64,000 nucleotides of DNA from Bdellovibrio bacteriovorus (GTDB lineage: Bacteria > Bdellovibrionota > Bdellovibrionia > Bdellovibrionales > Bdellovibrionaceae): positions 2,356,001 through 2,420,000 of the forward strand of contig NZ_CP020946.1 in assembly GCF_002208115.1 (NCBI RefSeq), read 5' to 3'. Below are positions 50,101-61,451 of this stretch, one piece after another. A program made the position numbers and the translations under genes. Below the pieces are notes generated by a model that saw nothing but the letters and a program-made list of their open reading frames with translations, was not told the origin of the DNA and made no database searches. Every line of letters starts with the position of its first letter. The stretch's first letter is position 1.

Positions 50101-53100
50101 ATGTTTGACGCCCGTACGTTCCTAACACACATCTCAACGTCATTCTTTGCGCTCTTTCTTACGAGTTGCATGGATGCTTCGCTATCCCCTCTGCTCAGCG
50201 AAAATCAGGTACTACGTAAAATCACAGTTGAATCCGGCAAAACCGTCGTGCTGGAAGAAGGCATCGGTCATCAAATCACCTTGGGAGTCGAAACCCCAAG
50301 CGTACCGGGCGTGACCGTGAAGCCCGAAGACCTGGGCTGGACCTTAAACGATGAAGATGGCGATTTTGAAGCTTCCAACGGCACTCTGCTGGTTCAGCCG
50401 GGGATCACTTCTGTCAGCTTCATCATCAAAGCCACTCGCGATGCGGTTATTGAAAACGATGAAACATTCGAACTTCGTTTTACCGGCGAAAAATTCGAGG
50501 GCCTGGACAGCAACGTTATTTCTTTTGTCGTGAAAGACAAAACCACCCGCGCCAAAGTGACGGCAGCGGCGACTTTGGATTTTGGTCCGCAGATGAAAGA
50601 CACGGTCATTGAAAAATCCGTGAGCTTCCAGAATACCGGCGATGCTCCAGCCCAAGGCCTGACTTTGAGCACCTTGTCGGCACCCTTTGCCTTTAAAGGC
50701 GGATCATTCCCAGGAAACGGCGGCACCTGTTCCACCACTTTGAACGGTCACTCTTCCTGTTCGGTCGTGATCACTTACAGCCCAACCGAGGTCAACACGC
50801 ACTCGCAAACGTTGACTTGGAATTACACCAATCCTGATATCGCGGATAACGGTTCCTTGGGAATTTCAGGCTTGGGCGTGGAAGTGGCTGCCGTGCTGGG
50901 TGGTCGCCCGGCGAATCCAAGCAATGTCGAAGATCTGGACATTACGGTCTCTGGCACGAACGTCACACATTATCGCTACAAGGTGGGCCCGCAAGGCTCA
51001 ACAGATTGCACAGTGTCTTCGGGCTATTCGACAGAAACGGCCGTGGGCGCAAAAATCACTGACGACCTTGCTGCTTTGGCCAATCAAAGCCTGAAAATCT
51101 GCGTGGTCGGGAAGGATTCAAACAACTTCTGGCAGCCTTTCACTGCGGCGACAGTTTACACTTGGAATTACGACACCCTTCGCCCGTCCGTGGTGATCAG
51201 CCAAAAAACAGGACAGGCTGATCCAACAAACACCCTGCCCGTTCGTTTTAGTCTGGTGTTCAGCGAAGCGCTGGCGGAAAGCTCATTGACCGATGGCGAT
51301 GTGAGCTTCGCCGGCTCCGCTTTGGTCAATACGCACACTCTGACGAAGATCGACAGCACTCACTATGAGCTGACAGTTTCTGGTGTGGATAACAACGGCG
51401 TGATTCAGCCGGTAATCAATGCAGACAAATTCTCGGACCTTGCTGGGAATCTGAATACCGTTTCTACAAGCTCTGACAACCAAGTGACTTATGACACCAG
51501 CGCCCCGTCTTTACCGACGTCTTTAAGCTGGATTCAAACATCACCAACCAAGGTCACTCCGGCTGCCGCCAGTTGGACTTTGTCAGATTCATCCGACATC
51601 GCTGAGCAAAAAATCCAGTTCTATAAAGATGCATCCTGCCTGCTCTTGGAAGGCACGGCCATTTCACTTTCCACTTCGGCGGTCACGCGAAGCTTTGCCG
51701 GGGCTGATGGCGAAACGTACACTTATAATCTGACGGTGATCGACACTTCCGGAAACGTCTCGGTTTCTGGCTGTTCGACGGCGCTGACCATGGACCGCAC
51801 AGCGCCCAGTCTGGCTTCTTTCAATCCTGCGACCAGTGTTCGCGCAAGTCTTCCGGCTTCAGTAACGGTCACTTTCAGTGAAGCCATGCTGCAATCCGCA
51901 GTTGAAACTGAAAGCAACTGGGGTATCACCTGCTCTGGCGGCGCGAATGTTTCAATTGCTGGTGTGTCAGCTTCCAGTGCGACAGCGGCCGTTGTGAATT
52001 TGACGGTAACGACATTGCCTGCCAATGCCGAAGTTTGCACCCTGACTGCAAAAACAACCCTGACTGATGTGGCGGGTAACGCCCTGCCTGCTGCCGGCAC
52101 GGTTCAATACACCCTGGATCTTCCGGGCACTGTTGTGTCTGTGACATCGTCTTTGGCCAATGGCTCTTACAAAGCTTCCCAGGTCGTGCCTGTCTCTGTC
52201 CAATTTACCGAAAACGTGACGATAGCTGGCGGCACGCCAGAACTTTTAATTGAAACTGGATCTACCGATCGTGTTGCGGCCTACGTCAGTGGCTCCGGTA
52301 CGAACACTCTGGTGTTCCAATACACTGTCCAGGCAGGCGATAACTCTGCGGATCTTGATTATGAGTCCGTCAATGCGTTGACACTGGCAGGCGCCACAAT
52401 CAAAGACAGCTTTGGCAATGACATGATTCTGACTTTGCCAGCGCCAGGCGCTGCAGGTTCACTTTCCGCCAACAAGAATATCATCATCGATACCCAAGCA
52501 CCCGAAGCCTTCGTGATCGCGGGTGTGACTGGCGGCACCGACTCGACTCAGGATGAATGGCTGACCAATGGTTCCACGGGAACGATCCATTGGGCTGCGG
52601 CACCTGGCAGCACTCAGTATTTGGTAGAAATCCGTAACAGCGATGCTTCCGCTCCCGTTTGTGCCCAGCAAACAGTGACAACAACGTCTCACACCTCCAC
52701 TGGGTGCGCCCTTTCCAATGGCACCCAATACACGGCGCGAATCTCTGCCCAGGATGCCGTGGGGAACTCCACCGCAGCCACTAATAACGACTTTGTGTTC
52801 ACGGTGAACACTTCCGCAGTGATTGCCACCATTACGGGTCAACCTACGGGCAAAACCAATCAGACCACACTGAATATCGATGTCGCCGGTGCTGACGTTC
52901 AGACCTATCGCTACAAAATAGGTCCTGCAGCTTCCACAAACTGCGCGGTTGCAACCGACTATTCCGGTGACATCGCCATTGCCACCCACATCACGGATTC
53001 CATCAGCGGCTTGGGTAACACTGATATCAAAGTCTGCGTGATCGGTAAAAACTCGGCCAGTGTCGAACAAGCCCTGACCTCGGCGACCACGGCGACGTGG

Positions 53101-56100
53101 ACACAGGATTTGGCAGCCCCGACTTTGACCATCAATCAAAAAGCCGGTCAGGCTGATCCGACCAACGCCGTCCCGGTGGAATTCACCATCGTGGCCAGCG
53201 AAGCCATTGCCAACTTCGCAGTCGCAGACATTACGCAATCCGGAACCGCTTCTGGCATCACCTGGAGTCTGACGACGTCTGATAATATCACTTGGTCCCT
53301 GAAGGCCACGGCCATCACGGGGGCCGGCACCCTGATCCCATCCATCACCGCCAATAAAGTGACGGATGCGGCTGGCAATAACAACACCGCCAGCACCAGC
53401 ACTGACAATCAAATCACTTACGAGACGACCAAGCCGTCTTTGACCATCAATCAAAAAGCCGGTCAGACCGATCCAACCAACACCCTGCCAGTGGAATTCA
53501 CGGTGGTCTTCACCGAGGCTGTCAATGCCAGCACCTTTACCGCGGCTGACATCACCCAAGGTGGAACGGCTTCCGGTATCACGTGGAATCTTTCGACTTC
53601 TGACAATATCACATGGACCCTGCAGGCCACCGCCATCACAACAGCCGGAACTTTGATTCCGTCCATCACAGCGGGGAAAGTCAGCGATCCGGCCGGCAAT
53701 ACGAACAATGCCTCGACCACGACGGATTCTACGGTGACCTATGATATTACGGCTCCGGTGAATGCAACGTCCCTGGCCTGGCAGCAGACGTCCCCGACGA
53801 ATACCACCAGCCTTGTGGCTTCTTGGAGCAAATCCACCAGCACGGATCTGGCTTCACAAAAAGTCCGTTTCTATACAGGGGCTTCTTGTGACACGTACAC
53901 CGGAACAGAAAACGCTGCGACCAGTTCTGCGACCACATCAAACTTCACAGGTGTGAATGGCACGACTTACACTTATCAGGTCATTTCTTTGGATGCTGCC
54001 GGGAACTCGATCACTTCGGTTTGTTCCAGCGCGATCGTTATTGACACCACGGTTCCCACTGTCACCAATGTTACATCCAACAAGGCCAATGGAGCATATA
54101 CTGTCGGTGATGTCATTGATGTGCGCATCACGTTCTCTGAAAACGTGACTGTCACTGGAACTCCGTTGATTGCCCTGAACACAACCCCTGCCCGTTCTGC
54201 ATCTTACGCTTCGGGCACCGGGACGAACACCCTTGTCTTTAACTATACAGTTCAAGCCACGGACACCGCGGCAGACCTGAATTATGCCGCCACCACGTCC
54301 CTGACAGTGGCTTCTGCCACCATTCGCGATGCCGCGGCCAACAATGCGACTCTGACCTTGCCGGCAACGGGGGCCGCGGGCTCTTTGGGCACGAACAAAA
54401 ATATCGTGATCGACACGACCGCCCCAAGCATCACCACCTTCACGGTGACAAACACGACCCCGACGAACAGCACAACATTTAATATCACTTCGGCCGTCAG
54501 TGGCAGCCCGGCTACTTATTGTATTATGGAAAACAACACAGCCGTGGCATCGTGCACGTGGACAGCCGGAGCTTCACTACCAGCCACATTCACGGTAACG
54601 ACTGTGAATGAAGCCAAAACACTTTATGCCTGGGTGAAAGATGCTGCCGGCAACGTCAGTGCAATGGCTAGTTCAGCATCGATTACATTCGATAACACTC
54701 CACCGACCGCAACCCTGTCCGGCCAGCCCACGGGGTCCAGTGCAAAGTATGCACTGAATATTGATGTCAATGGCAGTGATGTTGTCGCTTATAAATACAA
54801 ATTGGGTGTCGCTGGTTCCACGGACTGTACTGTGGCAACCGGATACTCGGCCTCTGAAATATCCAGCTCAACAAATATCACTGACAACATTTCCGCACTG
54901 GCTAACGGAAGCATCAAAGTGTGCGTGGTCGGCAAAGACACCGCTGGAAACTGGCAGACCTATGCGACTGCAACCGCTGTGACCTGGACTAAAAATTCTC
55001 CGGCTATTCAGTTTAGCGCTACGACATCCAGTGTTTCTGAATACAACGATCCGACGCATACCGTGGCCGTCAGCATCCCGTCCGCCGTCGATATCGCCGT
55101 CAGTGTCAGCTATACATATTCCAATGGTTCCGCACCTTCTGCAACAATGGGATCTGACTATACCGCCACCAACGGCACGGCAACAATTGCGGCTGGCAGC
55201 ACTTCCGTGAATATTTCAATTCCGATTCTTGATAACAGCACTGAAGAGTATGACGAAACATTCAAAATCACCCTGAGCGGCCCGGTGGGTGGTTCTTTGG
55301 GGGCTAACACCGTTCACACCGTGACTATCACGGATGACGAAGCTCCACCGCTGGTCACGATTCAGGACGTTTACGTTGTTGAAGGTTCTTCCACCAGCCT
55401 GATGGCGACACTATCGCATCCAACAGACAAAGGATCTGTCTCCATCAACTGGACGCGTGACACCTGCACCGGCACTGACTGTGCCACAGTTGGCACGGAC
55501 TATACGATGGCAACCACTTCGGGCACTGCTTCTGTTGCGTCGGGGGCAACTTCGGTCACATTTGGCAGTCTGACAACAATCAACAACGCGGCTGACGAAC
55601 TTTACAAACGCATTCCAATCAAAATCACCGGTATCACCGGCGGTACATCTTATATTTCCAACGCCGATATCTTTATCAACGACAATGACAGCCCGGCCGG
55701 AAAGGATGCCGTGGATGTTGTTGCCGGTGACAACCACACCTGCGCCCTGACCAGTAACGGTAACGTCTATTGTTGGGGCCACAATGGGGCCGCGCCCCTG
55801 GGACAAGGACACTACTATCCTAGTTCTTCACCACTGCTGGTTCCGTTGGCCGCCCCGGCCGTGGGGATAGCTTCTCTCTATAATAACGTCTGTGCTGTGT
55901 TAAACACCGGGGCGCTTTACTGTTGGGGTCAGGGAAGTCATGGTACTTATCCGGGGGGTGGTTTTACCGGAACCAGCTCGATAAGCACTCGTTTGACACC
56001 AACACTTGTAACCGGAATGAATTCGGGTGTCACCCAAGTCAGCATTGGCTGGGGTAACTCTTGCGCCATTCAAAACGGGGCCGTTTATTGCTGGGGTATC

Positions 56101-57831
56101 AAAGAAGGTGGCATTCTCGGGGATCCAGCAACCGCCTCCCCGACAACAGCACCCGTCGCTATTGCGAGCTTGAATTCGGGCGTAACAAAAATCTCAAGTG
56201 GCCAGTTCCATGCTTGTGCCATTAAATCCGGAGCATTGTACTGCTGGGGGCAAAACTCCAACGGCGAAGTGGGTGTTGGCAGCACCACTCTGGTGGGCAC
56301 GCCGACGGCGATCAACGGCCTGGGAACTGTCACTGATGTTTGGACGGGATATTATGGCACCTGTGCGAAAAACAATTCCAATCAGGTCTATTGCTGGGGT
56401 AACAATTCCGACAACCAGCTTTTAAGCAATACCACTGCGGATGTCACCTCGCCGCTTTTGATGGCGGAACTTGCCGGAGCCACAGATATTTACTTTGGTA
56501 TCCAGTTCTGCGCGGCTTTAGCCGGCGATTTGCATTGTAAAGGCAGAAACTATTTTGGCGAAGCCGGCATCAATCAGCCGACAGGAACCTCGGTGATTCC
56601 TTTGACCCCCGTTGTTGGAGGCTCTGGCGGTGTCACTGCCGTTGCGGGCTCTACAGGGGCTCACACCTGTTTCGTGCGCAGTGGCCAGGTTTATTGCACA
56701 GGATTCTCGGGATTCGGCCAGCACGGCGATCAGCAACCTCTGCAGTCCAATGCCCACGTTCTCAGCCCGAAATTCAGCGGTGCCAGCACCATTTCCATCT
56801 TCACTGAGCATGCTTGCGGCATCTTCAGCGGGGCCGTGAAATGTCTGGGTGACAGCTACTATAGCAAAACCGGAAATCTGCTGACAGATCGTATTTATCA
56901 GGCTCCGACCCAGGTGAAAAATCTGACCTCTGGAGCCACCAAGCTTGTCAGTTCCAGCACCGGCACATGTGCCGTTGTGTCAGGCGGGGTTCAATGCTGG
57001 GGTCGCAACTTTATTCGCGCTTCGGGAAGCACTTCGGGAAATCCGAATATTCCGACAGGACTGTCTTCAGGAGCTACGGACTTGGCAATGAGTTTTGGCA
57101 GCACTGTGTGCGCCATTAAGGCGGGCAAACTTTACTGTTGGGGTCAGGTTGATATCATCCCTTACTTGGACCTTGCTGTTGATTTCTATTATGCGCCCGT
57201 CGAAATCACCGCCGCTGGTTCCAATAACGTGTCCGTCACCTTGGGCCGCCATCATGCTTGCGTGTTGAAAACAGACAAAACCGTCTGGTGCACCGGCTAC
57301 AATGCCCACGGTCAGTTGGGCCAAGGGGACACCTCTGACCGAATCAGTCTGCATCAGGTGCCGGGTCTGACGAATGTCGATGAATTGCAGGCTTCCAGCT
57401 ATGGAACTTGTGCCCGCATCGGAACAACGTCCATCAAGTGTTGGGGGCAAATAACAGGAAATGGAACCAACACCAACCAAAAGACGCCGGTTGATATTGG
57501 AAGCTTCACCAACGTGACCCGACTGATCAGCGGTTACACCAACCACTGCGCGATCAACAACGGCGCCGCCTATTGCTGGGGCTTTAATCGCTATGACCAA
57601 CACGGCTTGAATGACTATCAGACAAATGAATACCATTTTTCTCCGACGGCTTTGACGACTCTTAACGCCATCGGCACTGTGACTGATCTGGAAGTTCGTG
57701 GCGCTTATGGTATTTGCGGTAAAATTGGCACAAACTGGTACTGTTCGGGTATCGACACGAACAGCGAGCTGGGAACAAACAGAAAGCCGTTCCGTCTGGC
57801 GCCGGTTTCCATGGGGCCTTTCCCTAACTAA
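50101..57831 (+). CDS. Giant lipoprotein: Calx-beta, Ig-like domains and 14 RCC1 repeats
   Basis: 2576 aa. The N-terminus THISTSFFALFLTSC is a lipoprotein signal. In order: a Calx-beta-like domain (about 40-145), an ASPM/choice-of-anchor-like beta domain (about 155-260), about ten bacterial Ig-like units (about 265-1630; motifs such as TFSEAM, DLAGN, DTTVPTVTNVT), two more Calx-beta domains (about 1640-1870), then 14 RCC1-type repeats to the C-terminus. Most repeats read CAxxxGxxYCWGxN, with a Cys pair about 8-10 residues apart; 14 blades would make two seven-bladed propellers. Probably a surface-exposed adhesin or binding protein; partner unknown. The start has only a weak Shine-Dalgarno. 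Confidence 0.87.
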   Translation: MFDARTFLTHISTSFFALFLTSCMDASLSPLLSENQVLRKITVESGKTVVLEEGIGHQITLGVETPSVPGVTVKPEDLGWTLNDEDGDFEASNGTLLVQPGITSVSFIIKATRDAVIENDETFELRFTGEKFEGLDSNVISFVVKDKTTRAKVTAAATLDFGPQMKDTVIEKSVSFQNTGDAPAQGLTLSTLSAPFAFKGGSFPGNGGTCSTTLNGHSSCSVVITYSPTEVNTHSQTLTWNYTNPDIADNGSLGISGLGVEVAAVLGGRPANPSNVEDLDITVSGTNVTHYRYKVGPQGSTDCTVSSGYSTETAVGAKITDDLAALANQSLKICVVGKDSNNFWQPFTAATVYTWNYDTLRPSVVISQKTGQADPTNTLPVRFSLVFSEALAESSLTDGDVSFAGSALVNTHTLTKIDSTHYELTVSGVDNNGVIQPVINADKFSDLAGNLNTVSTSSDNQVTYDTSAPSLPTSLSWIQTSPTKVTPAAASWTLSDSSDIAEQKIQFYKDASCLLLEGTAISLSTSAVTRSFAGADGETYTYNLTVIDTSGNVSVSGCSTALTMDRTAPSLASFNPATSVRASLPASVTVTFSEAMLQSAVETESNWGITCSGGANVSIAGVSASSATAAVVNLTVTTLPANAEVCTLTAKTTLTDVAGNALPAAGTVQYTLDLPGTVVSVTSSLANGSYKASQVVPVSVQFTENVTIAGGTPELLIETGSTDRVAAYVSGSGTNTLVFQYTVQAGDNSADLDYESVNALTLAGATIKDSFGNDMILTLPAPGAAGSLSANKNIIIDTQAPEAFVIAGVTGGTDSTQDEWLTNGSTGTIHWAAAPGSTQYLVEIRNSDASAPVCAQQTVTTTSHTSTGCALSNGTQYTARISAQDAVGNSTAATNNDFVFTVNTSAVIATITGQPTGKTNQTTLNIDVAGADVQTYRYKIGPAASTNCAVATDYSGDIAIATHITDSISGLGNTDIKVCVIGKNSASVEQALTSATTATWTQDLAAPTLTINQKAGQADPTNAVPVEFTIVASEAIANFAVADITQSGTASGITWSLTTSDNITWSLKATAITGAGTLIPSITANKVTDAAGNNNTASTSTDNQITYETTKPSLTINQKAGQTDPTNTLPVEFTVVFTEAVNASTFTAADITQGGTASGITWNLSTSDNITWTLQATAITTAGTLIPSITAGKVSDPAGNTNNASTTTDSTVTYDITAPVNATSLAWQQTSPTNTTSLVASWSKSTSTDLASQKVRFYTGASCDTYTGTENAATSSATTSNFTGVNGTTYTYQVISLDAAGNSITSVCSSAIVIDTTVPTVTNVTSNKANGAYTVGDVIDVRITFSENVTVTGTPLIALNTTPARSASYASGTGTNTLVFNYTVQATDTAADLNYAATTSLTVASATIRDAAANNATLTLPATGAAGSLGTNKNIVIDTTAPSITTFTVTNTTPTNSTTFNITSAVSGSPATYCIMENNTAVASCTWTAGASLPATFTVTTVNEAKTLYAWVKDAAGNVSAMASSASITFDNTPPTATLSGQPTGSSAKYALNIDVNGSDVVAYKYKLGVAGSTDCTVATGYSASEISSSTNITDNISALANGSIKVCVVGKDTAGNWQTYATATAVTWTKNSPAIQFSATTSSVSEYNDPTHTVAVSIPSAVDIAVSVSYTYSNGSAPSATMGSDYTATNGTATIAAGSTSVNISIPILDNSTEEYDETFKITLSGPVGGSLGANTVHTVTITDDEAPPLVTIQDVYVVEGSSTSLMATLSHPTDKGSVSINWTRDTCTGTDCATVGTDYTMATTSGTASVASGATSVTFGSLTTINNAADELYKRIPIKITGITGGTSYISNADIFINDNDSPAGKDAVDVVAGDNHTCALTSNGNVYCWGHNGAAPLGQGHYYPSSSPLLVPLAAPAVGIASLYNNVCAVLNTGALYCWGQGSHGTYPGGGFTGTSSISTRLTPTLVTGMNSGVTQVSIGWGNSCAIQNGAVYCWGIKEGGILGDPATASPTTAPVAIASLNSGVTKISSGQFHACAIKSGALYCWGQNSNGEVGVGSTTLVGTPTAINGLGTVTDVWTGYYGTCAKNNSNQVYCWGNNSDNQLLSNTTADVTSPLLMAELAGATDIYFGIQFCAALAGDLHCKGRNYFGEAGINQPTGTSVIPLTPVVGGSGGVTAVAGSTGAHTCFVRSGQVYCTGFSGFGQHGDQQPLQSNAHVLSPKFSGASTISIFTEHACGIFSGAVKCLGDSYYSKTGNLLTDRIYQAPTQVKNLTSGATKLVSSSTGTCAVVSGGVQCWGRNFIRASGSTSGNPNIPTGLSSGATDLAMSFGSTVCAIKAGKLYCWGQVDIIPYLDLAVDFYYAPVEITAAGSNNVSVTLGRHHACVLKTDKTVWCTGYNAHGQLGQGDTSDRISLHQVPGLTNVDELQASSYGTCARIGTTSIKCWGQITGNGTNTNQKTPVDIGSFTNVTRLISGYTNHCAINNGAAYCWGFNRYDQHGLNDYQTNEYHFSPTALTTLNAIGTVTDLEVRGAYGICGKIGTNWYCSGIDTNSELGTNRKPFRLAPVSMGPFPN

Positions 57832-57864
57832 ACCAAATCACTGCTTGATTAACCCTCTGCGTTT

Positions 57865-57884
57865 CCCCTAAATTTTAGGGGTTT
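57865..57884 (+). terminator. Short hairpin after the giant lipoprotein gene
   Basis: CCCCTAA / TTAGGGG with a 3-base loop, followed by TTTAC. A weak terminator; the next gene begins 19 bases downstream with GAGGA before its ATG. Confidence 0.5.
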
Positions 57885-57902
57885 ACTAAACAGAGGATCC
57901 TC

Positions 57903-60734
57903 ATGAAGAAACTACTTTTGTCCTTAATGGCCGGCCTTTTGGCGCCGACCATAGCCATGTCTCAATCCGAAGTAATCGACAACTCACAAAGCCCGCCCCG
58001 CCAGTGGAAGACGATTGAAAACGAATACGTTAAAGTCATCTATCCTGAAGCCTTCCGTCCCAAAGCGGTGTATGTGGCGAATCTCATCAAACACAACGCC
58101 GCCGTTGTGGGCCTGAGCTATGGAATCAGCAAACCGAAGAAAATCACCCTTATTATCCGCAATGAGGTGGCTCTTCCCAATGGTTTTGTAGCTCGCGCTC
58201 CCCGCCGCACAGAGTGGTTCAATGCCGGTGCCTACAGCCCCATGGTGGGATCTCTGGAATGGCTGCAGATTCTTTCCATCCACGAATACCGTCACGTACA
58301 GCAGATGGATGACTTCAATAAAAACACGGTTCGCTATTTCGATTACCTCTTCGGGGATCTGGGGCTGAATCTGGCCGATGTGATCTCTAAAAAACCATGG
58401 ATGGCGGAAGGTGATGCCGTCTATGCCGAAACAAAATACACGGATGGTGGCCGGGGCCGGTCCCCGCGTTTCCTGACGCGTCTTAAAGGTATTTTGCTGG
58501 GGGGCGAAACCCCGACTTACGATCAATTTGTGAATGGGACCTATCGTGACGCTTTGGTGAATCAGTATGTTTACGGTTACGTGCTGATTTCCCGCGCGTA
58601 TCAAAAATATGGTGATGATTTCTGGGAAAAACTGACCGACAAAATCACCCGCGGTCCCCACCCGTTCCGTCTGGAATCCGCGTTCAGGGAACTGACCGGC
58701 GTTGAGTTCCAGAGCTTCTACTATGAGACTTTCAACGAACTGCGCGAGGCATGGAAGAAAGACGCCTTCACCGACGCTCCCAAAACCGACTACACGGTAA
58801 GATTCAATCCCAAGGTTTCCAATAACAGTCTGTACTATGTGAAGTTTGACCTCAATACGGTCCCGGCCATCTACAAATCCACAGCACAGGGTGAAGAAAA
58901 AATCGCCGAAGTGCCGTATTCAGAAGACTTAAGCCGCATTGACTATTCCGGCACCCATGCTGTGTACACGGATTATGTGCCTCACCCGCGCTATGGATTT
59001 GAGGGCTCGGCAAATCTTGTTCTGGTGGATCTGACCGGTGGATCGAAGTCCTACATCACTTCAGGACGCCGCCTTTACAATCCGAAATTCAGCGCCAGCG
59101 GTAAATCCATTCTGGCAGCGGAGTTCAATGACAAGATGACCTGGGACATTCAAGAAATTGGTTTTGATGGAAAGAACCTGCGCACTCTGTCCCTTAAAGA
59201 CCTTGATCTGATGGAGGCCGCTTCGCTGAACGGGGATGAAATTATCGCCGTGGCTTCCAACAACACCGGACACAAGGCCTTGATTCAGGCGCGCTTCGGT
59301 TCGGATCAATATAAGGTGCTTTTGCCGTTTTCCCGCAACAATATCTTCTGGCTGCAGACAAACTCAAACCAAGAAATTCTGTTCGAGGCACAGTACAAAG
59401 GCGCCAACGAAATCTTCCACGGAAACACCCTGGGTGAATTCAGGCAATGCACCCAGAGCAAAATTTCTGCTTACGCTCCAACCTTTGATGGAACAAGCCT
59501 GGTTTACACCGAAGAAACCCCCTACGGAGCCCGTACCAAGAAAGCGGAGTTGAGCTCATGCGCGGCCCTGCCGGCTTCCCAACTGGTTGACTTCAACTAT
59601 CTGGGCGACAACCCCAGTGATAATTACAACAAGTTCCAGCCGGTACCACTGAGCGGCCAGGAAACCTTCTACACGGCGGATTCTGCCAAATACACCGAAT
59701 CAGACTATGGGATGTTTGATGCGCGGGGTTTCACTCCGCACACCTGGAGCTTCTTTGGCGGTCGCGGCTTGGCTTTGACGGTGATCACGGACAACTATCT
59801 TCGCGATTTCGGTTCCGCCATCACGGTCGGTTCTGATGGCGAGGAAAACACCCCATTTACTTCCGTCAAGATCGACTTTAAACGGTACTGGCCGGTCTTC
59901 AGCATTCTGGGCGACATCCGCAACCGTGCTGCCGATGTGAATCTGAACACGCAGGAACTAACCTGGCGCGAGGGCTCTTACGGTTTGGGCGTGGCCTTGC
60001 CGTATGCCTTTAAACACCACCTGTACAACGGATACCTGCAGGTTGATTACTCTGCGAAGCTTTTAAAAACGGAAAGCTTCCGACTGGACAAGGTGTCTGT
60101 GCCGGGATCTCAAGCTTCCACTTACGCGGATCAAAAAGTGGGCCTTTTGTTCTCTTACACCAAATCCGCGCAGCACCGTGCGATTCTGCCTCCGCTGGGG
60201 GTCGACGTTCAGGCGTTCTATGAAGACGTGGATGGAGTGTCCAACGAAGAAGCTCCGGGTTCTTACCGAACTTACGGACAGGTTCGTCTGTACCTGCCAG
60301 GCTTCCTTGCTAATAATGGCATTCGTCTGACTGGGAATGGACAGGAGAACCGCGAAGGCACCGGCAATTACATCTTCCCGACTCCGGCATTCAATCCGGT
60401 GGGTTACATCTATTCCCGTGGCTTTGATTACCTGCCGGCAGATCGTTTTGTAAAGGGCAGCTTCGAGTACATGTTCCCGCTGTCTTATCCGGACTACAAC
60501 CTGGGGGCGTGGATCTATTTCAAACGTCTTTATGGAAATCTGTACATGGATCACACCAAAGTCATCCTTGGCAACAACAACGCCAACCTGAACAGTTATG
60601 GTGCAGAGTTGATCGCACAATCTGTGATCTTCCGCTTCCTGCCAATCGACTTTGGCTTCCGCTATATTCAGAAAGTGGAACCGGCCGAGGGTGAAGGTGA
60701 AATCTTCCTGGGCACGAACTTAGCTGTGTTCTAA
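57903..60734 (+). CDS. Predicted outer-membrane zinc metalloprotease with beta-propeller and beta-barrel
   Basis: 943 aa. Signal peptide (MKKLLLSLMAGLLAPTIAMSQ). The N-terminal domain is zincin-like with HEYRH (His127, Glu128, His131) and a likely third ligand Glu169 in PWMAEGDAVYAE. Residues about 270-560 look like a TolB/WD40-type propeller (YNPKFSASGKSILAAEFND). From about 600 alternating hydrophobic strands and a terminal FLGTNLAVF suggest an outer-membrane barrel. Peptidase activity is inferred from HExxH only. The architecture suggests a surface- or periplasm-facing protease useful in predation. Confidence 0.8.
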   Translation: MKKLLLSLMAGLLAPTIAMSQSEVIDNSQSPPRQWKTIENEYVKVIYPEAFRPKAVYVANLIKHNAAVVGLSYGISKPKKITLIIRNEVALPNGFVARAPRRTEWFNAGAYSPMVGSLEWLQILSIHEYRHVQQMDDFNKNTVRYFDYLFGDLGLNLADVISKKPWMAEGDAVYAETKYTDGGRGRSPRFLTRLKGILLGGETPTYDQFVNGTYRDALVNQYVYGYVLISRAYQKYGDDFWEKLTDKITRGPHPFRLESAFRELTGVEFQSFYYETFNELREAWKKDAFTDAPKTDYTVRFNPKVSNNSLYYVKFDLNTVPAIYKSTAQGEEKIAEVPYSEDLSRIDYSGTHAVYTDYVPHPRYGFEGSANLVLVDLTGGSKSYITSGRRLYNPKFSASGKSILAAEFNDKMTWDIQEIGFDGKNLRTLSLKDLDLMEAASLNGDEIIAVASNNTGHKALIQARFGSDQYKVLLPFSRNNIFWLQTNSNQEILFEAQYKGANEIFHGNTLGEFRQCTQSKISAYAPTFDGTSLVYTEETPYGARTKKAELSSCAALPASQLVDFNYLGDNPSDNYNKFQPVPLSGQETFYTADSAKYTESDYGMFDARGFTPHTWSFFGGRGLALTVITDNYLRDFGSAITVGSDGEENTPFTSVKIDFKRYWPVFSILGDIRNRAADVNLNTQELTWREGSYGLGVALPYAFKHHLYNGYLQVDYSAKLLKTESFRLDKVSVPGSQASTYADQKVGLLFSYTKSAQHRAILPPLGVDVQAFYEDVDGVSNEEAPGSYRTYGQVRLYLPGFLANNGIRLTGNGQENREGTGNYIFPTPAFNPVGYIYSRGFDYLPADRFVKGSFEYMFPLSYPDYNLGAWIYFKRLYGNLYMDHTKVILGNNNANLNSYGAELIAQSVIFRFLPIDFGFRYIQKVEPAEGEGEIFLGTNLAVF

Positions 60735-60738
60735 ATAA

Positions 60739-60765
60739 AAAAGGCCTGCGCAATGCAGGCCTTTT
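60739..60765. terminator. Bidirectional terminator between convergent genes
   Basis: Perfect 11-bp stem AAAAGGCCTGC / GCAGGCCTTTT with a 5-base loop. T runs follow on both strands, serving the metalloprotease gene (plus) and the outer-membrane protein gene (minus). Confidence 0.9.
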
Positions 60766-60776
60766 GTTTTTCGATC

Positions 60777-61451
60777 TTAGCGACCGACAGTTCCGGGAAT
60801 CCCGTCAAACATGATCCCCACCGTAAAGTAAGAACCCGACAGATCCAGAGAGTTCACACTGGTGCTGACCGAACCGGAGCGCTTCAGGTCATCCACCTTG
60901 TTGTGCTCAATAGCGCCTTCAAATACAAAATAGAATCGCTTGTAACCCAAAGCCAAAGAGACTCCCGCCGCAGCGTAAGGGGATGCGTACCAGCTCTCTC
61001 CGACACTCTTGGTGTAGTCACCGTTTTGTGCCAGAGTCTTCATCGTGACTTTCGTATTGGTGCCGCCAACACCAGCAAAGGCATCGACGCGATAGAAGTC
61101 CTCACGAACAATGGGGACACGTGCAATCAGCAGGAACGCATCCTGATCAATTTTGGCAGAATAGTCGGTATTAGGGTCGGCCGGATTTTCTTCACTGTCA
61201 GCGAGCTTCTTGGCATAACGAGCGCCCACATCCAGATATTTCATCACAGGATAGGTAATTTCCAGGCCCAACTGCGTGACGCCTTCAATTTTTTTCATGG
61301 ATTGAGCTTCCAGACTGTCATTCAGTTCATCAAGCTTCACACCCGTCATTCCCGCAAAGAAGCGGGCCTGAACCGGAATCTCAACCGCCGCAGAGGCTGT
61401 TGCCGATACGATTAAAGAAAACAAACCAACGACGACAGGGAACTTCATCAT
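60777..61451 (-). CDS. Outer-membrane beta-barrel protein
   Basis: 224 aa from ATG 61451 (61448 also possible); GAGGTGAT lies immediately upstream. Signal peptide ends TASAAVEIP. Alternating strands such as QLGLEITYPVMKYLDVGARYAKKL and FYFVFEGAIEHNKVD, plus a closing SYFTVGIMFDG, indicate a small barrel of the OmpA/OmpW kind. No enzymatic motif. Divergently placed from no other gene; the next upstream gene, marC, is on the same strand 110 bp away. Confidence 0.75.
   Translation of the reverse strand: MMKFPVVVGLFSLIVSATASAAVEIPVQARFFAGMTGVKLDELNDSLEAQSMKKIEGVTQLGLEITYPVMKYLDVGARYAKKLADSEENPADPNTDYSAKIDQDAFLLIARVPIVREDFYRVDAFAGVGGTNTKVTMKTLAQNGDYTKSVGESWYASPYAAAGVSLALGYKRFYFVFEGAIEHNKVDDLKRSGSVSTSVNSLDLSGSYFTVGIMFDGIPGTVGR

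Follow-up and report, generated by a model that had tools for sequence, protein, structure and literature searches.

A giant Bdellovibrio bacteriovorus lipoprotein with a predicted double RCC1-type propeller head and a cysteine pair in every blade

The window analysed here, a 64,000 nt stretch of the Bdellovibrio bacteriovorus genome (NZ_CP020946.1, positions 2,356,001 to 2,420,000), contains an open reading frame of 2576 aa (50101-57831, plus strand) encoding a giant lipoprotein, the C-terminal head of which consists of exactly 14 RCC1-type repeats with one C-x8/9-C-x-G unit in each. Its repeat count, fold, cysteine co-conservation, paralogy and the different rates of change of head and stalk make it reasonably probable that the protein is a lipid-anchored, disulfide-braced double-propeller surface adhesin or receptor, a reading in which we infer the disulfides themselves, the surface location, the binding and its target. 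The head is a well-supported variant of a known fold, with a putative function.

Architecture of the giant lipoprotein

The features of the reading frame are given below, with the cysteine pairs and the lipobox read from the sequence.

50101-57831, plus strand: giant lipoprotein, 2576 aa, with orthologs in several congeneric genomes
50101-50169, plus strand: signal peptide and lipobox (LTSC, lipid-modified Cys23)
50170-55686, plus strand: stalk, aa 24-1862, ~18 Ig-like/Calx-beta-like domains, 20 Cys (Pfam)
54997-55338, plus strand: Calx-beta domain, aa 1633-1746 (Pfam PF03160, 3.4e-14)
55342-55686, plus strand: second Calx-beta-like domain, aa 1748-1862, resembling the preceding domain in sequence
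55687-56760, plus strand: propeller 1, blades 1-7, aa 1863-2220 (Cys-pair repeats, AlphaFold2, Foldseek)
56761-57828, plus strand: propeller 2, blades 8-14, aa 2221-2576 (AlphaFold2 pLDDT 81, pTM 0.82; UVR8 TM 0.78)
55741-55773, plus strand: Cys pair 1, C1881-C1891
55891-55923, plus strand: Cys pair 2, C1931-C1941
56062-56091, plus strand: Cys pair 3, C1988-C1997
56215-56244, plus strand: Cys pair 4, C2039-C2048
56362-56394, plus strand: Cys pair 5, C2088-C2098
56509-56538, plus strand: Cys pair 6, C2137-C2146
56668-56697, plus strand: Cys pair 7, C2190-C2199
56815-56844, plus strand: Cys pair 8, C2239-C2248
56968-56997, plus strand: Cys pair 9, C2290-C2299
57109-57138, plus strand: Cys pair 10, C2337-C2346
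57259-57291, plus strand: Cys pair 11, C2387-C2397
57409-57441, plus strand: Cys pair 12, C2437-C2447
57547-57576, plus strand: Cys pair 13, C2483-C2492
57715-57744, plus strand: Cys pair 14, C2539-C2548, absent as a pair in the G005 ortholog

The signal peptide and lipobox cysteine are those of a bacterial lipoprotein, and the lipobox (FALFLTSC, Cys23) is kept in six full-length orthologs, with the pattern recurring in paralogs. Pfam matches along the stalk were to Big_5, Big_12 (just below the curated cut-off), HYDIN-like and fn3 (both weak) and Calx-beta, in agreement with the Ig-like and Calx-beta domains that the earlier note had assigned to this region, and there was also a weak NCBIfam match to a sodium/calcium exchanger at aa 1664-1784. 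The number of stalk domains (~18) is an estimate from length; at some 4 nm per domain, the stalk would reach near 70 nm if extended, which is much longer than the periplasm and thus makes exposure outside the cell likely. The lipobox and the Ig-like and Calx-beta domains fit the long surface fibre seen in this protein by the earlier note, and the fibre itself is a plausible reading of these features. Within the stalk, two adjoining stretches (53119-53390 and 53434-53707) are ~75% identical in DNA, as seen from secondary BLAST hits, and are probably a tandem Ig-domain duplication.

The 14 C-x8/9-C-x-G units of the head span aa 1881-2548 (nt 55741-57744), are spaced 46-57 residues apart and account for all 28 head cysteines. 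The number of units and the residues following the second cysteine (W in nine, T in two, and K, L and S in one each) are as previously described for the motif CxxxxxxxxC[WTKLS]G; the fixed spacing of that motif does not hold, with eight residues between the cysteines in 9/14 units and nine in the remaining 5/14. Shuffling of the head residues gave a maximum of three such units in 2000 shuffles. The RCC1 profiles of Pfam all matched the head above their curated cut-offs (PF13540, 3e-37; PF00415, 7e-32; PF25390, 2e-96).

Structure prediction with AlphaFold2 gave a mean pLDDT of 74.5 and a pTM of 0.54 for the 714-residue head, with propeller 1 being the better half, and a pLDDT of 81.2 and pTM of 0.82 for propeller 2 on its own. 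Using Foldseek, the head model matched UVR8 over ~365 aligned columns, corresponding to one propeller (TM 0.81, rmsd 2.8), while the propeller 2 model matched UVR8 over ~380 columns (TM 0.78) and also matched BLIP-II. The predicted models are thus RCC1-type seven-bladed propellers, with their mutual angle left unfixed at the full-head pTM of 0.54. The structure prediction called for in the earlier note has therefore been run, and yielded the RCC1/UVR8-like seven-bladed folds expected for two propellers of seven blades each (14 = 2 x 7).

The same blade numbers are found in related proteins. The genome encodes ten RCC1 lipoproteins including the giant lipoprotein, each with a signal peptide and lipobox, and the nine others (L021-L029) are located at unrelated sites in the genome (G000). 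Eight of the ten have 14 Cys-pair blades, in some cases with one or two of these degenerate, the exceptions being L022 with 15 pattern matches and L023 with 7, and the stalks range from ~0.13 to 2.1 thousand residues. A survey of twenty loci of congeneric species together with the G005 locus yielded 19 RCC1 proteins, 13 with 14 pairs, one with 7 and five with 12-13. The occurrence of 7 or 14 blades on stalks of very different length indicates that the 7+7 double propeller is a fixed head module.

Cysteine pairs as candidate disulfides

The earlier note also suggested a disulfide within each blade. Such bonds are very likely, because the cysteines are co-conserved, are predicted to lie on adjacent strands and occur in an organism with a VKOR-DsbA oxidase; the support is indirect, and consists of the co-occurrence, invariance and hairpin register of the cysteines together with this resident oxidase. 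In the AlphaFold2 model, 28/28 head cysteines are on neighbouring strands, and according to the AlphaFold2 strand list each of the 14 pairs flanks one short hairpin, with the first cysteine in the preceding strand and the second in the following one. Counting along this hairpin, a spacer of eight residues would correspond to a two-residue turn and a spacer of nine to a three-residue turn, which in both cases would bring the cysteines face to face at a non-hydrogen-bonded site.

We then surveyed 550 distinct blades from many species with a profile HMM, with cysteines masked to X in both the profile and the searched sequences. Both cysteines were present in 534 blades, neither in 10 and a single one in 6 at first scoring; reading the latter six by hand revealed five one-residue alignment slips with both cysteines present and one true single, resulting in final numbers of 539, 10 and 1, respectively. 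The Fisher p-value of 5e-17 obtained with the uncorrected table is indicative only, owing to the relatedness of the sequences and to the use of Cys-containing patterns in collecting part of them, but such kinship and sampling leave the near absence of single-Cys blades unexplained. Within the orthologs, 49/49 cysteines are invariant in six full-length sequences, and in the seventh (G005) C2539 and C2548 have been lost together.

Alternatively, the regular cysteines may stem from repeat amplification of one Cys-containing blade and not reflect disulfides, since single blades are known to have been amplified into propellers (PMC9218822) and the cysteines could persist by descent. We regard this as highly improbable: the blades are highly diverged from each other but still keep both cysteines, losses are pairwise (10 with neither versus 1 single, n = 550, and the double loss in G005), and the paired cysteines are on adjacent strands in the predicted model.

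With regard to the formation of disulfides, DsbB was considered as oxidase and rejected, as it is absent from the genome and VKOR is present instead. Several DsbA-family proteins are encoded in the genome, and VKOR and DsbA domains are apparently combined in one 416-residue open frame (G000:C1:1793653-1794807, minus strand), which together indicate that an oxidising pathway exists. In the architecture that we propose, the lipid anchor and the long Ig-like/Calx-beta stalk would present the double-propeller head at a probably surface-exposed position, a disulfide in each blade would link the two central strands across their hairpin, and these bridges, formed after export by the VKOR-DsbA system, would hold the shape of the head outside the cell.

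Head divergence, paralogs and putative role

Comparison of the orthologs from the window, G001, G007 and G013 showed 64-88% identity over the stalk (aa 363-1862) versus 55-62% over the head, with identity dropping in a sharp step at ~aa 1880, and among four divergent alleles variability is higher in the head than in the stalk (p 4e-22). The AB and CD loops, which are located on one face according to the strand order, are the most variable parts of the head, and strands B and C with the cysteines the least (AB/CD-loop face versus opposite face, Mann-Whitney p 0.0035). In the closest species (G002) the head is conserved at least as well as the stalk. The window sequence is 82% identical to both G002 and G001 over aa 363-1002 of the stalk, while its head is 88-89% identical to that of G002 and 59-62% to that of G001, which looks as if head alleles had been replaced or one line had changed in a burst. 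General acceleration of the head in all paralogs was considered and dismissed, as the effect is weak in L027 (65-69% for head and 73-76% for stalk versus G016) and the strong step is specific to the ortholog set of the giant lipoprotein. Positive selection on the head was not supported either, with pairwise dN/dS far below 1 where dS is measurable and saturated elsewhere. The divergence of a head with retained cysteines and a variable AB/CD face would fit a ligand-binding surface head, in which the loops of one propeller face can vary freely and most likely constitute the binding surface, as in other RCC1-type propellers.

A segment of the window (53001-61000) has ~99% nucleotide identity to the congeneric genome G006, with flanks at ~83%, and judged by this identity profile represents a recent inter-species recombination tract covering the distal stalk, head and downstream gene. 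This downstream gene (57903-60734) is shared with two close genomes only, and encodes a 943-aa exported protein without Pfam or NCBIfam match, containing an HEYRH motif (residues 127-131; HExxH at 58281) of the kind typical for zinc peptidases, with its C-terminal half resembling an outer-membrane barrel. There were no neighbours common to the ten paralogs, and gene neighbourhood was thus discarded as functional clue.

Because no RCC1_2 match was detected in two near-complete congeneric genomes (G015 and G017), whereas other species carry many, the RCC1 lipoprotein family appears to have undergone strong gain and loss within the genus. For the paralog L022, a comparison with 23 congeneric genomes gave no ortholog at 1e-150. 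Outside the genus, the Cys-pair RCC1 module is also present in Gemmatimonadetes, Acidobacteria, an Aeromicrobium and a Patescibacterium. A viral relationship was rejected, as no relative of the head was found in viral contigs; a few cyanophages and one Clostridioides phage gave matches, all of them weak. Several RCC1 lipoproteins have a loose motif following the lipid-modified cysteine (CTLKADL, CSLDAEL, CMDASL, CSIDLSL), located at 50167-50190 of the window and at the N-termini of L022, L025, L026, L029, L091, L095, L096 and L099; it was not seen in most other lipoproteins from the same loci, and is possibly a sorting or surface-export signal. Approximately 3.2 kb downstream of one RCC1 paralog is a gene (L029 11551-12714) for a protein without Pfam match that starts with APNSLTYQGRI, presumably similar to the N-terminus of MAT-type fibres.

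The RCC1 fold is often used to bind proteins, as in UVR8, RCC1-Ran and BLIP-II. The giant lipoprotein would be one of about ten paralogous tethers that differ in length and share the double-propeller head, and this ten-member set suggests that these proteins form a family of receptors or adhesins at the surface. Most likely it would act at the surface as an adhesin or receptor, with another cell or a macromolecule as its target and prey contact as one candidate, and prey binding by the head, as put forward in the earlier note, would be plausible. A prey-specific adhesin, with surface molecules of the prey being recognised by the double propeller during attack and the paralogs making up a recognition repertoire comparable to MAT fibres, is tentative: the ten paralogs with variable stalks, paralog gain and loss (such as L022), the head divergence with its apparent allele step between species and the use of families of surface fibres for prey recognition by Bdellovibrio (PMC10769870) all point this way, but the module, being present in the four non-Bdellovibrio groups listed above, is not specific to predators, and the two congeneric genomes without RCC1_2 match also speak against a prey-specific adhesin.

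Equally tentative is a self-directed or structural role, with the heads binding to one another or to envelope or matrix of the predator itself, in a surface coat, vesicle or biofilm. UVR8, the closest fold match, forms homodimers, and double propellers on long Ig stalks would suit lattice or cell-cell contacts; furthermore, an RCC1 repeat protein is listed among the outer membrane vesicle proteins of Myxococcus xanthus (PMC4158809). A pure scaffold would, however, be less expected to show a variable loop face and a divergent head. A secreted inhibitor or decoy that neutralises an enzyme or phage protein by binding to it has a precedent in BLIP-II, a secreted bacterial RCC1-fold protein inhibitor that matches the propeller 2 model, but is improbable, as BLIP-II is a soluble single propeller, a lipid anchor and very long stalk are unexpected for a soluble inhibitor, and no defence-family match was found. 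A defence system was also rejected for lack of a PADLOC match, and the RTX toxin annotation given to RCC1 proteins in two Bdellovibrio genomes was rejected since the Pfam scan gave no toxin or RTX domain. Genes annotated as RTX toxin were previously noted to carry RCC1 repeats instead of a toxin domain (PMC5941755), which was the only remark on Bdellovibrio RCC1 proteins found in the literature.

Returning to the surface adhesin or receptor, a more speculative and rather unlikely extension is that the Cys-stapled double-propeller lipoproteins constitute an undescribed repertoire of predator surface receptors beside the MAT fibres, combining a locked head scaffold, stalks of different reach, AB/CD-loop diversity and head alleles swapped between species by recombination, with the head set tuning contacts with prey or partners. 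If the heads do bind ligands, Bdellovibrio would have, in addition to the MAT fibres, a second large family for surface recognition, and this could contribute to explaining redundancy in Bdellovibrio adhesion. The constant cysteine frame and variable face make the ligand question directly testable with recombinant heads.

Comparison with known propeller and fibre proteins

The closest parallel to the cysteine arrangement is found in plants, where the extracellular RCC1-like propeller of CRINKLY4/ACR4 is seven-bladed and each of its repeats contains a regularly placed Cys pair and a CWG motif, and PDB entries 7a0j (ACR4) and 7a0k ('predicted protein', which we take to be a CR4 homologue) match the blade profile. 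The head likewise has a Cys pair with a CWG-like motif in every repeat, with 8-9 residues between the cysteines versus 10 in plants. In CRINKLY4, seven C(X10)CWG repeats have been described, for which disulfides on neighbouring antiparallel strands were proposed (PMC4617170). CRINKLY4 differs in being a plant receptor kinase with one propeller, compared to two propellers in a bacterial lipoprotein on an Ig stalk, and the Pfam scan of the giant lipoprotein gave no kinase, TNFR-type Cys-rich or comparable domain, placing it outside the CRINKLY4 family, which combines these two domains with a transmembrane segment. RCC1, UVR8 and HERC belong to the same repeat family (PF00415, PF13540, PF25390) and share the seven-bladed fold, but are intracellular, and the UVR8 and HERC2 alignments have mostly other residues at the Cys-pair positions. 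BLIP-II is similarly a secreted bacterial RCC1-fold propeller that binds a protein ligand, but is a single soluble domain without stalk or lipid anchor.

Among bacterial proteins with a Cys pair in every blade, a Myxococcota lipoprotein (L032) shares the 14 blades and extracytoplasmic location, but lacks the Ig/Calx-beta stalk. Three proteins from Gemmatimonadetes MAGs (L030, L031 and L034) differ in being kinase fusions, consisting of an N-terminal kinase, a hydrophobic segment and seven extracytoplasmic Cys-pair RCC1 blades (Pfam domains and hydrophobic segment were checked on L030 only), and as predicted from this domain order are a bacterial parallel to the plant CRINKLY4 receptor kinases. 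No description of Cys-pair RCC1 proteins of either type was found in the literature searched. Should the heads of the giant lipoprotein family be ligand-binding, this would also show the disulfide-stapled RCC1 propeller, discussed for plant CRINKLY4 receptors, to be common among exported proteins of bacteria from different phyla, with receptor-kinase-like architectures among them.

The MAT fibres are, like the RCC1 lipoproteins, a large multi-member Bdellovibrio surface family with a variable C-terminal head, but are trimeric beta-prism fibres of unrelated sequence, for which the portion of the source available to us (PMC10769870) describes no lipid anchor. The C-terminus of the giant lipoprotein consists of RCC1 propellers instead of the S74 or related C-terminal domains of such trimeric fibres. 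The idea of disulfides within RCC1-type blades is thus not new, given CRINKLY4, and what sets the Bdellovibrio proteins apart is the tandem 7+7 head, the lipid anchor, the Ig/Calx-beta stalk and the ten-member family.
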